The notes below the pieces were generated by a model. That model saw only the letters and a program-made list of their open reading frames with translations, was not told where the DNA came from and did no database searches. From Thioalkalivibrio sp. ALJ7 (GTDB taxonomy: Bacteria > Pseudomonadota > Gammaproteobacteria > Ectothiorhodospirales > Ectothiorhodospiraceae), in NCBI RefSeq assembly GCF_000376865.1, contig NZ_AQXQ01000008.1, forward strand, positions 62,001-126,000: DNA of 64,000 nt, in the 5' to 3' direction. This document shows, piece by piece, positions 40,765-44,425 of the stretch; the stretch's first letter is position 1, and each line of letters begins with the position of its first letter. A program made the translations under genes and the position numbers.

Positions 40765-42036
40765 TCAGAGCGAGACGACGCGGTTACGGCCGGCTTCCTT
40801 GGCCTGGTACATCGCTTCGTCGACGCGGCGGGCGAAGGTCTTGGGGGTATCTCCGGGCCGCATATCCGTGACGCCAAAGCTGGCGGTAACCGAAATCGGA
40901 CACGACGTCTTCATCGCAGCGACGGTCTGACGGAGCTTTTCGGCCATCGCCTCCGCGCCCTTGCAGGGGGTCTCCGGCACCACGACCATGAACTCCTCAC
41001 CACCCCAGCGCCCCAGGGCATCGGCTTCGCGTAGTGCCTTGCGCACGGTGTCGGCAAGCTTTTTGAGCACCTCATCGCCGGTTTCATGACCGTAGTCGTC
41101 GTTGAAGTCCTTGAAGTGGTCGATGTCGAACATGATCAGTGACAGCGGTCGCCCGTAGCGCCGGCTGCGCTCCATCTCCGTCTCCAGCGTATCGCCCAGA
41201 CTCAGACGATTCGCCAGGCCCGTCAGCCAGTCCGTATGGGCGAGACGGCGGACTTCGTCCTCCATACGCACCCGGTCGGTGATGTCCTTCCCGATCGCCA
41301 CGTAGTGCGTAATCTGGCCCCTTTCGTTAATCACCGGATTGATGGTCTGTTCAAGATGAATCAACGAGCCGTCGTGGCGGCGGTTCACAAATTCGCCCCG
41401 GAAGGTATCGCCACGTTTCAGGGTCTCCCACATCTCTTGATAAAAGGCATCCTCCTGCTGACCCGATTTGAACAGACGCGGATTCTGCCCCAGCACTTGG
41501 TTGCGGCTATATCCAGTCTGTTCTTCAAAGGCCACATTCACGTATACGATGTTGCCCTGGGGGTCGGTGATCAGCACCGGGTCTCCCGCCACTTCCAGGG
41601 CCGTGGAGAGCAGGCGTAACTGATCGTCTCGTTCCCGGTCCTCGGTTTCATCACGCTGGACGGAAACAAAGTGGGTTACCGCACCCGTGTCGTCGGCGTA
41701 GATGGGGGAGATGTGCAAACTGACAACGTAGCGACGACCCTCGCGGGTATAGTTCACCGTCTCGCCGTCATAGGAATGGCCTTGCTCCAACGCCGCACGT
41801 AATTCGTGCCGGAATTCTTCGCTGGTCTCCGGCCCTTGCAACATCCGCGGCGTCTTGCCCAACACGTCATCCCGGGAATATCCCGTGATCCGTTCGAATC
41901 CGCGATTCACGTAAAGAATCCGCGGCCCTTCATCAAGATCGGCATCGGTGACCAGAACCGCGTTGAGAGAGTGCTCAATTGCCGTCTCCAGCAAACGCAG
42001 CTTCTCGTAGCCCTCGATGGATGGAACGGTCGTCAT
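40765..42036 (-). CDS. PAS-PAS-GGDEF diguanylate cyclase
   Basis: A 423-residue cytoplasmic protein. Two PAS domains with PAC motifs (about 15-135 and 140-255; GFERITGYSRDDVLGKTPRM, AFEEQTGYSRNQVLGQNPRL) precede a GGDEF domain (about 262-423). GGEEF is at 345-349 and the inhibitory RxxD at 336-339 (Arg336, Asp339). It should make c-di-GMP under cytoplasmic control, perhaps redox or small-ligand sensing by PAS. Confidence 0.95.
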   Translation of the reverse strand: MTTVPSIEGYEKLRLLETAIEHSLNAVLVTDADLDEGPRILYVNRGFERITGYSRDDVLGKTPRMLQGPETSEEFRHELRAALEQGHSYDGETVNYTREGRRYVVSLHISPIYADDTGAVTHFVSVQRDETEDRERDDQLRLLSTALEVAGDPVLITDPQGNIVYVNVAFEEQTGYSRNQVLGQNPRLFKSGQQEDAFYQEMWETLKRGDTFRGEFVNRRHDGSLIHLEQTINPVINERGQITHYVAIGKDITDRVRMEDEVRRLAHTDWLTGLANRLSLGDTLETEMERSRRYGRPLSLIMFDIDHFKDFNDDYGHETGDEVLKKLADTVRKALREADALGRWGGEEFMVVVPETPCKGAEAMAEKLRQTVAAMKTSCPISVTASFGVTDMRPGDTPKTFARRVDEAMYQAKEAGRNRVVSL

Positions 42037-42159: not shown

Positions 42160-42552
42160 TCAGTCCATGTCGGCCATTTCCAGGATCGAGCCGACAATGT
42201 CACTGGTGGTAACGATGCCTTCGAGCTCATTGCCTTTCAGCACCACCAGGCGGCGGATCCCCTGGCTGACCATGAGTCGTGCAACGTACTTTACGTCCAT
42301 CTCGGCGGGCACGGTAATCACCGGCTTGGTACAGACATCATAGACATTGGAGAGGTCAATATCGCCCTCTTCCGCCACGATGGTCTTGAGGATCGTGGTG
42401 TAGGTAATGATCCCATAGGCATCGTGGGCGTGCTGCTTGTCCACCACCAGGGACTTCACTTTGTGCTTGCGCATCAGTTGCATCGCCTCGCGCAGGGGTG
42501 CCAGCGGCGATACGGTGATGACGTCGGACTTGAGGATTTCGCGTACCAGCAT
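42160..42552 (-). CDS. CBS-domain pair protein
   Basis: A 130-residue protein made of two CBS domains (LVREILKSDVITVSPLAPLR and DVCTKPVITVPAEMDVKYVA), with GIITYTTILKTIVAEEGD and GIVTTSDIVGSILEM. CBS pairs bind adenine nucleotides. It is the third gene after DUF1538 and P-II-like genes, with starts 12 bp and 3 bp after the preceding stops, so the three form one operon. Confidence 0.92.
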   Translation of the reverse strand: MLVREILKSDVITVSPLAPLREAMQLMRKHKVKSLVVDKQHAHDAYGIITYTTILKTIVAEEGDIDLSNVYDVCTKPVITVPAEMDVKYVARLMVSQGIRRLVVLKGNELEGIVTTSDIVGSILEMADMD

Positions 42553-42563
42553 GATGTTCTCCC

Positions 42564-42911
42564 TCAAAGTTCTTCCTTGACCTGTTCCTGGAACTGTTCG
42601 ATCTGGTTGCGCCCAATACCGGCCAGATGGGCGACATCGACCGTGAAGGCGATCCCCCGGGGATCATTGGCCAGATCAAGCTCTTTCGAAATGGCCTTGA
42701 GCACACCCAGGGCCACCTTTTTTTCCAGCACCCACAACAGTACGGACTGGCTACCCTCGTAGGTCATACCGAGAAAGGTCTTGCGCGCCTCGGCGCCAAT
42801 CCCACGGCCATCCATGATGGTGACACCACCCGCGCCCGCCTCCTTGGCCGTTGCGATCGCACGCTCCTCCAGGTCATCGGACAAAACCGCCACCAGTGCG
42901 GAAAATCTCAT
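42564..42911 (-). CDS. P-II family (GlnB-like) regulator
   Basis: A 115-residue ferredoxin-like protein of the P-II superfamily (FSALVAVLSDDLEERAIATA, then GVTIMDGRGIGAEARKTFLG as the T-loop region). The T-loop lacks the uridylylated Tyr found in GlnB/GlnK. It sits between DUF1538 and CBS genes in one operon and probably controls the transporter by nucleotide binding. Confidence 0.88.
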   Translation of the reverse strand: MRFSALVAVLSDDLEERAIATAKEAGAGGVTIMDGRGIGAEARKTFLGMTYEGSQSVLLWVLEKKVALGVLKAISKELDLANDPRGIAFTVDVAHLAGIGRNQIEQFQEQVKEEL

Positions 42912-42913
42912 TG

Positions 42914-44425
42914 CTATTCCTCCTGCTGCTCGTTGCGAGCCAGCCAGCGTTCGTAAAGGTCCACGGCAATGGCGTAGAGCATGACCGTGACGATCGGGAA
43001 GATCGAGGCAAAGGCGATCAGGCCAAAGCCATCGATCAGCACATTGCGGTCTTCCAGGTGGGTCGCCAGGCCGATCCCCAGCGCGGTTACTAGCGGCACC
43101 GTCACCTCCGACGTGGTAACCCCACCGAGATCAAAAGCCAGCGCCACAATCTGCTTCGGTGCCAGGATCGTCAGCACGATCACCAGCAGATAGCCGCCCA
43201 TGATGTAGTGATGGATAGAATCGCCCGCCAGGATGCGATGAACCCCAATGGTGATCCCGATCGCCACCCCAAGCGCGACCAGGATTCGGATCACATTGCC
43301 CCGCAGGGAGCCATGCGCCGCCTCCTCCGCCTTCTGGCCGATCGCAATCAACGCCGGTTCCGCCATCGTTGTGGCAAAGCCAATGGAAAACGCGAACAGA
43401 TAGACCCACAGGAACAGCTCGTTGGTGATCAGCTGCTCCGCCATGCTCTCGCCGATCGGGAACAGCCCCAGCTTCAGCCCGACCACAAAGGCATACAGGC
43501 CCAGCACGACCAGCGCAAACCCAAAGATCACGCGCGGTAGATAGGGGATACGCTTGCGCAGCACGAAGTACTGGAAGACCACGATCACCGCGATAATGGG
43601 CGCCACGTCACGCAGCATCAGCAACAAGTCCATGCCCATCGCCGACAGCCAGTGGCGCTCGCCCTCACCCGGCAGGGCCGTATCCGGGTCCATTGCCTCC
43701 GCCTCCCCGCCTGCAGGGGCCGCGATATCCGCTCCGGCAAATACGATGATCCCGTAGATCTGCACCGTGATCATCGGGACCATCACCGCGAGAGCGACCA
43801 AGCCAAAGCCATCCCTTAGCGGGTTGCGCCCACTGATCGACGCCGCCAGGCCCAGCCCCAGGGCCGCAATGAGCGGCACCGTGACGATATTCGTGGTGAC
43901 CCCGCCCGAGTCATAAGCCAGGCCGACAATCTCCTCCGGGGCAAAGAAGGTCACCAGGACCACCAGCACGTAGCCGCTCAGGATGTACCAGTGCAGCGGG
44001 TGTCCGAGCACCGTGCGCAGGATACCCAGCGCGACCACCGCGCCCACCGACAGGGCGACGATCATGCGTAGCACGAAGCCCTCGATCCGACCCTCGCTAA
44101 TCAGCTCTGCCTGCTCGGCCACCGCAATCAGCGCCGGCTCCGCGATCACCGTGGAGAAGCCCAGCGTGAATCCGAAGGCCATCAGCAATAGCAGCGAGCC
44201 GCGCCGCGCCAGCGCGTTCGACAGGTTCTTGCCAATGGGGAAGATCCCCATCTCCAGACCCTGCAGAAACAACGCCACGCCGAAGACCACGATGGCCAGG
44301 CCCACCACCATGGAGAGCAAGCCATCCGGCACGGTTTGCAGCACAAGTGCCTGAAACACCGCGACCACGATCACAATCGGGGCCAGATTGCGCGCGGCAT
44401 GGCCTAAGGTGTGAAGGAAGTTCAT
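42914..44425 (-). CDS. DUF1538 family membrane transporter
   Basis: A 503-residue inner-membrane protein with two homologous halves, each containing GFTLGFSTVIAEPALIAVAE or FSIGFATTMAEPALIAIGQK and a later DSGGVTTNIVTVPLIAALGL or DLGGVTTSEVTVPLVTALGI. This is DUF1538, a duplicated transporter-like fold. The acidic EP and GGVTT motifs are likely ion-binding. Its tight operon with P-II-like and CBS genes suggests nucleotide-regulated ion or solute flux. ATG 44425 is chosen over 44464 since MNFLHTL starts the first hydrophobic part. Confidence 0.9.
   Translation of the reverse strand: MNFLHTLGHAARNLAPIVIVVAVFQALVLQTVPDGLLSMVVGLAIVVFGVALFLQGLEMGIFPIGKNLSNALARRGSLLLLMAFGFTLGFSTVIAEPALIAVAEQAELISEGRIEGFVLRMIVALSVGAVVALGILRTVLGHPLHWYILSGYVLVVLVTFFAPEEIVGLAYDSGGVTTNIVTVPLIAALGLGLAASISGRNPLRDGFGLVALAVMVPMITVQIYGIIVFAGADIAAPAGGEAEAMDPDTALPGEGERHWLSAMGMDLLLMLRDVAPIIAVIVVFQYFVLRKRIPYLPRVIFGFALVVLGLYAFVVGLKLGLFPIGESMAEQLITNELFLWVYLFAFSIGFATTMAEPALIAIGQKAEEAAHGSLRGNVIRILVALGVAIGITIGVHRILAGDSIHHYIMGGYLLVIVLTILAPKQIVALAFDLGGVTTSEVTVPLVTALGIGLATHLEDRNVLIDGFGLIAFASIFPIVTVMLYAIAVDLYERWLARNEQQEE

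Follow-up and report, generated by a model that had tools for sequence, protein, structure and literature searches.

The 64,000-nucleotide stretch of the Thioalkalivibrio sp. ALJ7 genome analysed here (contig NZ_AQXQ01000008.1, positions 62,001 to 126,000; hereafter 'the window') contains, at window positions 42160-44425, a three-gene operon for a membrane transporter with two DUF1538 units, a small PII-like protein and a tandem-CBS protein. We think it rather probable that this operon encodes three components: a fused UmpAB-type Na+(Li+,K+)/H+ antiporter, a dedicated PII-like regulator in the form of a trimer that would dock through its T-loop and gate the ion path, and a CBS-pair accessory protein. 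The PII-like gene is a near-obligate companion of DUF1538 in the genomes sampled, it usually lies directly downstream, and in some bacteria the two are naturally fused into one open frame. Because a protein of PII fold adjoins, and is sometimes fused to, the transporter, direct control of transport is suggested; direct docking, gating, the stoichiometry and the ligands we infer by analogy with known PII–transporter pairs.

All three genes are on the minus strand, in the order antiporter, PII-like, CBS, with intergenic gaps of 2 and 11 bp (Table 1). The initial annotation had proposed a single operon for a duplicated membrane transporter, a P-II-like protein and a CBS pair, and this is borne out by the coordinates and by matches to PF07556 (twice), PF00543 and PF00571 (twice). 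The CBS reading frame as listed begins at an in-frame TTG at 42567; its ATG gives the shorter extent in the table. A purine-rich, Shine–Dalgarno-like sequence precedes each of the three starts (AAGGAGCGC at the antiporter ATG). A scan for sigma-70 promoters found none, against 0.6 expected, and two terminator-like sites were found, against 1.8 expected, both on the plus strand. The nearest named loci are four Thioalkalivibrio sp. ALJ records, with 94-95 % identity in the antiporter; members of the genus are described as haloalkaliphilic sulfur oxidisers of soda lakes (PMC6620896, PMC8092127).

Table 1. Genes of the antiporter operon, in window positions.
Gene product	Positions	Strand	Basis
DUF1538 x2 antiporter in one chain (UmpA-like N half, UmpB-like C half)	42914-44425	-	503 aa, ATG start; PF07556 444.8 bits over two stretches
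PII-like protein, proposed antiporter gate	42564-42911	-	115 aa; PF00543 26.5 bits; AlphaFold2 model and structure comparison; residue mapping to GlnB
Tandem-CBS protein	42160-42552 (from ATG)	-	PF00571 88.7 bits, two stretches; closest PDB sequence 5nmu; motif in second repeat

We monitored co-occurrence in two samples, one of 299 genomes from the window's phylum (completeness 90 or more) and one of 150 genomes from the phylum of a Sulfurovum locus. PII-like proteins were counted in the first sample at 58.7 bits or more; among the matches listed, those of 42.3 bits or less were excluded, and further matches lay beyond the list. DUF1538 was present in 82 of the 299 genomes and a strong PII-like match in 85, namely all 82 and three others (G078, G160 and G164). 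In the second sample 21 of the 150 genomes had DUF1538, and the same 21 had a PII-like match of at least 48 bits; one more genome had only a weak match, of 21.9 bits. With a PII-like protein in every DUF1538 genome of both samples, we rejected chance adjacency; the Fisher values for the co-occurrence overstate independence, since the sample often holds several genomes of one genus. The expectations that the operon is conserved and that the regulators travel with the transporter were thus upheld, also by the fusions found in some lineages; the opposite outcome, regulators occurring mostly without the transporter, was looked for and not found, as 82 of the 85 genomes and all 21 have both.

The PII-like gene was directly downstream, on the same strand, in 71 of the 74 first-sample genomes with listed DUF1538 coordinates, the other 8 of the 82 having none listed and being excluded from this count. 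DUF1538 occurred in 13 of 41 genomes in the genus of Halomonas sp. Y3, and all 13 had a locus with PII-like and CBS genes beside it (in G515 and G537 of this genus the match to DUF1538 is broken up between frames). Most DUF1538-centred loci carry split umpA-umpB pairs, which have the same downstream PII-like gene and usually a CBS gene too. Among 30 DUF1538-centred loci, no CBS match followed the PII-like gene in L062, L068, L072, L075, L083 and L084 (flanks of 129 to 352 bp; 1.1 kb in L083), and L112 alone lacked one among 30 PII-centred loci. Several relatives have a second PII-like gene upstream of the antiporter, and three low-scoring matches that adjoin DUF1538 (in G061, G095 and G183) look like second, divergent PII-like copies. 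Divergent one-chain DUF1538 proteins are found in L053 (6036-8540; 29 % identity to that of the window) and L264 (6370-8828), followed by one PII-like gene and a second, weaker one; L054 (7297-8385) has a single 362-aa open frame with two PII-like domains.

Fusions were surveyed in the best 80 of 537 loci by homology to the antiporter, a set biased to close relatives. Four of these end within 61 bp of the antiporter, which leaves 76 informative loci: 62 with a separate PII-like gene directly downstream (L117, L162 and L169 of these fail our strict CBS rule, though a CBS match is listed there) and 14 with antiporter and PII-like protein in one open frame, the PII-like part at the antiporter C-terminus. 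The fused loci are 13 records named as Campylobacterota and one metagenome-assembled genome of Kangiella (L194). When the fused proteins of L182, L185 and L194 and of a further campylobacterial locus, L208, were compared with Pfam, PF07556 and PF00543 were both over their cut-offs, PF00543 by 0.5 to 7.5 bits. In the Campylobacterota sample the PII-like match lay inside a frame of at least 641 codons in 7 of 21 genomes, the frame of G366 having an internal stop. The 14 fused loci yielded no CBS match within the sequence stretches covered. That regulator and exchanger are fused in other bacteria hints that salt and pH balance are controlled directly.

The transporter had been described as uncharacterised, which is out of date. 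In Halomonas zhaodongensis the DUF1538 proteins UmpA and UmpB form a heterodimer, for which assays published in 2017 showed Na+(Li+,K+)/H+ antiport that depends on pH and is optimal at pH 9.0 (PMC5484666), and DUF1538 appears in a table of pH-adaptation features (PMC13255231). Judged from its sequence, the window transporter is a one-chain version of this antiporter, and its antiport activity would follow from family membership (PMC5484666). The best stretch for the NCBIfam UmpA model is residues 3-227 and that for UmpB residues 270-489. Both scores lie under the curated cut-offs of NF041627 and NF041628 (444.5 vs 490 bits and 410.3 vs 500 bits), as do those of a split umpAB pair found in the Halomonas sp. 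Y3 genus (414.3 and 466.3 bits), and UmpAB is defined by two separate subunits, which the single window chain does not have. When the predicted fold of the DUF1538 chain (8-row alignment; predicted local distance difference test, pLDDT, 71.5) was compared with the PDB, nothing reached E 0.001; the top hit was VcINDY at E 2.5e-3 and a TM score of 0.20, from which we conclude nothing.

The second gene is clearly predicted to encode a protein of PII fold, despite a Pfam score that reaches the PF00543 gathering cut-off only marginally (26.5 vs 25 bits). Other tested members score 25.5 to 45.9 bits; one upstream copy is below the cut-off, at 21.8, as are two tandem PII-like copies elsewhere in the window's genome. 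The AlphaFold2 model (pLDDT 83.2, about 50 in the T-loop region) has the ferredoxin-like PII fold. Structure comparison, based like all structure-guided statements here on single-chain models, gave best matches at Z 11-12 to SbtB, CPII and GlnK/GlnZ structures: SbtB 6mm2 (Z 12.1, root-mean-square deviation (rmsd) 2.4, 91 residues aligned), GlnK of the AmtB complex, 2ns1_B (Z 11.4, rmsd 4.4, 98 aligned) and CPII 5drk (Z 11.1, rmsd 2.2, 85 aligned), with PotN 7o4x at Z 11.4 (rmsd 5.0, 92 aligned). These values do not tell PII subfamilies apart.

We then compared the residues of 19 canonical GlnB/GlnK proteins (17 distinct) with those of PII-like domains in three settings: 152 distinct ones downstream of the antiporter, 11 upstream of it and 15 fused to it, identical domains being merged and orphan copies excluded. 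The canonical proteins came from the 16 low-scoring loci L270-L285, from the window's own genome (L249) and from two copies in L286. All 19 keep R38 and Q39 of the T-loop and the phosphate-binding K90, R101 and R103 (GlnB numbering). In the 152 downstream domains R38, K90 and R101 are kept in none, R103 in one and Q39 in four; the fused domains keep R103 in 2 of 15 and the other four residues in none. The window protein has A40, E41, I87, G98 and G100 in place of R38, Q39, K90, R101 and R103 respectively. T29 and G48 are kept in all 152 downstream domains, G89 in 141, G35 in 132 and G37 in 128. Having lost most of the residues needed, the PII-like protein is unlikely to sense ATP/ADP or 2-oxoglutarate as GlnB does. 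The uridylylated tyrosine, which the initial annotation had held to be missing, is in fact present: Tyr51 of the window protein aligns with Tyr51 of GlnB, both by MAFFT and when profiles are aligned with hhalign. Uridylylation as a general switch was nevertheless rejected, since a tyrosine occupies this position in just 74 of the 152 distinct downstream relatives and is no family trait. There is no cysteine among the 115 residues of the window protein, and hence no counterpart of the C-terminal CGPxGC redox motif that occurs in some SbtB homologs (PMC8352866).

The PDB sequence closest to the third gene product is CBS-CP12 (5nmu, E 1.6e-21). The CBS ribose-site motif, G-h-h-T/S-x-x-D, is complete in the second repeat only of the window protein. 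Its Asp is found there in 123 of 154 distinct sequences (17 gaps), that of the window included; the same position of the first repeat has N in 63, D in 52 and T in 30 of the 154, and T in the window. Judged by this motif, the CBS pair is a plausible candidate for adenine-nucleotide input, and a better one than the PII-like protein. Of the two nucleotide sensors proposed at the outset, the CBS half therefore stands as plausible, and the PII-like half is weakened by the near-complete loss of K90, R101 and R103 from the downstream family.

In the mechanism that we favour, the PII-like protein would probably form a trimer and use its T-loop to dock on the antiporter from the cytoplasmic side, where it may open or block the ion path and so gate Na+/H+ exchange, as GlnK acts on AmtB and SbtB on SbtA; the CBS protein would add adenine-nucleotide input. 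In the SbtA–SbtB structure the T-loop inserts into the inter-domain cleft of the transporter, an arrangement likened there to GlnK–AmtB (PMC8352866).

Several observations weigh against a dedicated PII-like gate. Split umpAB pairs with no PII-like or CBS match within the 9 to 14 kb examined occur in G139, G170 and G144, and G536 has an additional split pair with no adjoining PII-like gene, the nearest being 3.9 kb away; all four genomes have a PII-like gene elsewhere. PII-like and CBS genes lie together on a contig apart from DUF1538 in G139, G170 and G192, which belong to one family (L260, 161-1001; L261, 141-3182; L262, 1840-2600). We rejected contig breaks as the cause of this separation in G139 and G170, because sequence does continue past the PII-like gene in the direction where the antiporter would lie, and holds no DUF1538, and because the umpAB pairs of these genomes have no adjoining PII-like gene. 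Furthermore, 37 of the 112 strong PII-like matches in the first sample are not adjacent to a listed DUF1538 match, so this PII-like group has other contexts too. An FFGL-type T-loop motif is present in 145 of 152 downstream and 8 of 11 upstream domains, and also in 20 of 27 orphans and in none of the 15 fused domains. It was rejected as an antiporter-specific docking code: occurring in orphan copies and missing from the fused ones, it is no evidence for docking. Finally, UmpAB of H. zhaodongensis was active in Escherichia coli from a 4.2-kb insert whose four listed open reading frames include no PII-like or CBS gene, and none of the whole words PII, P-II and CBS occurs in the main text of that paper (PMC5484666). 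Because UmpAB worked from such an insert, basic antiport needs no regulator. The separated umpAB pairs slightly lower our confidence that the PII-like protein regulates the antiporter.

Other neighbours of the PII-like group were recorded. In the window's genome, L004 (4580-6461; contig C12, 374579-376460) encodes a protein with SBP_bac_3 and ion-channel parts and a TVGYGD filter, and two tandem PII-like genes follow 27 bp after it. The channel gene directly precedes two PII-like genes in 8 of the 14 loci examined in the genus (that of the window's genome and 7 of 13 others), and the TVGYGD-type channel may be another partner in cation transport for this PII-like group. Orphan PII-like genes lie close to a divergent amino-acid-kinase gene (PF00696) in L253, L255, L259 and L266, with an SH3-domain gene between the two in at least L253. 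The start of this kinase presumably resembles that of the N-acetylglutamate kinase ArgB; ArgB is the classical PII target in cyanobacteria and plants. In L251 (9429-13538) and L252 an orphan PII-like gene stands ahead of a dihydrouridine synthase gene (Dus; checked in L251 only) and of putative ntrB and ntrC genes. In Halomonas sp. Y3 (L263, 5349-7693) an orphan is convergent with a KefC/CPA2-like antiporter gene, the two overlapping by 4 bp, and in G170 (L261) the PII-like and CBS genes follow, and overlap the end of, a gene of malic-enzyme/phosphotransacetylase type. Next to the window operon itself, a gene for a PAS-PAS-GGDEF protein follows the CBS gene, likewise on the minus strand (40765-42036). 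Each of the four Thioalkalivibrio ALJ loci L115-L118 has a close match to it at the corresponding position; in other named loci, PAS-PAS-GGDEF matches at E 1e-30 or better (n=5) sit upstream of the antiporter instead.

Both small proteins might instead sense adenine nucleotides, so that transport is gated by energy charge; on this reading the PII-like protein would, like SbtB and CPII, bind AMP, ADP, ATP or cAMP, and would do so in a re-shaped site. The close solved folds do include nucleotide-bound SbtB and CPII, T29, G35, G37 and G89 are mostly kept, and the CBS motif is preserved in the second repeat; we nevertheless consider this unlikely, given that R38, K90 and R101 are absent from all downstream members, R103 and Q39 from almost all, and a CBS match from the 14 fused loci. 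Loss of most canonical ligand residues, near-obligate pairing and fusion would equally fit a constitutive structural subunit, an assembly or stability factor of the antiporter that exerts no ligand control. To our knowledge, however, the PII fold is a signalling fold in characterised cases, and some umpAB pairs have no adjoining PII-like gene. UmpAB was, moreover, active without a PII-like protein (PMC5484666), and we regard a purely structural role as improbable. It is harder still to believe that DUF1538 with a PII-like partner carries another substrate, for instance by ammonium or bicarbonate coupling, and that the PII-like protein reports nitrogen or carbon status. PII-fold relatives do regulate AmtB and SbtA, and Thioalkalivibrio are chemolithoautotrophs of soda lakes, but the member of the family that has been assayed exchanges Na+(Li+,K+) for H+ (PMC5484666), DUF1538 is tabulated with pH-adaptation features (PMC13255231), and the window's genome has its own canonical GlnB/GlnK.

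The proposal of an antiporter with its own PII-like regulator can be widened, and we do so tentatively. A distinct branch of the PII superfamily might have become a control subunit that accompanies monovalent-cation transport almost without exception, in some cases by covalent attachment. It would have lost the ATP/2-oxoglutarate site and would respond instead to something nearer ion balance, be it pH, Na+, bicarbonate or some other ligand. This branch might also serve the TVGYGD-type channel of Thioalkalivibrio, a putative ligand-gated K+ channel.

In the literature searched we found no description of the antiporter–PII–CBS link or of a DUF1538/PII-like fusion, and no regulator of DUF1538 antiporters is named there. 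The parts are all of known kinds; the link of this PII-like group to DUF1538 antiporters, and the fusion, are apparently new, their novelty in print being not certain. With a partner that is almost invariant, and in some lineages fused, control of the DUF1538 antiporter becomes directly testable with few genes in an assay strain that is already established. If our proposal is correct, Na+/H+ exchange would join the uptake of ammonium and bicarbonate among the transport processes under PII control, and a PII protein could retain a gating role after losing the residues that read ATP and 2-oxoglutarate.

Comparison with known systems places the operon as follows. With UmpAB of H. zhaodongensis it shares two DUF1538 units, UmpA-like then UmpB-like, and a halophile or haloalkaliphile host, whereas the window version is fused in one chain, scores under the curated cut-offs and has downstream PII-like and CBS genes. 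CBS-CP12 and stand-alone CBS pairs resemble the third gene product, for which 5nmu is the best PDB sequence match; the window protein differs in lacking the CP12 part, the alignment covering the CBS pair only, and in its place in an antiporter operon. CPII and PotN, which are PII-like proteins linked to carbon-fixation or transport genes, have the PII fold in common with the window protein and differ in gene context. GlnK, too, has this fold and shares an operon with its membrane target AmtB; unlike GlnK, the window protein lacks R38, Q39, K90, R101 and R103, and its putative target is an antiporter. SbtB, the regulator of the Na+/bicarbonate symporter SbtA, likewise combines the PII fold with an operon containing the gene of a Na+-coupled transporter, but the transporter belongs to another family, the window protein has no CGPxGC loop, and in some lineages the PII-like protein is fused to the antiporter.

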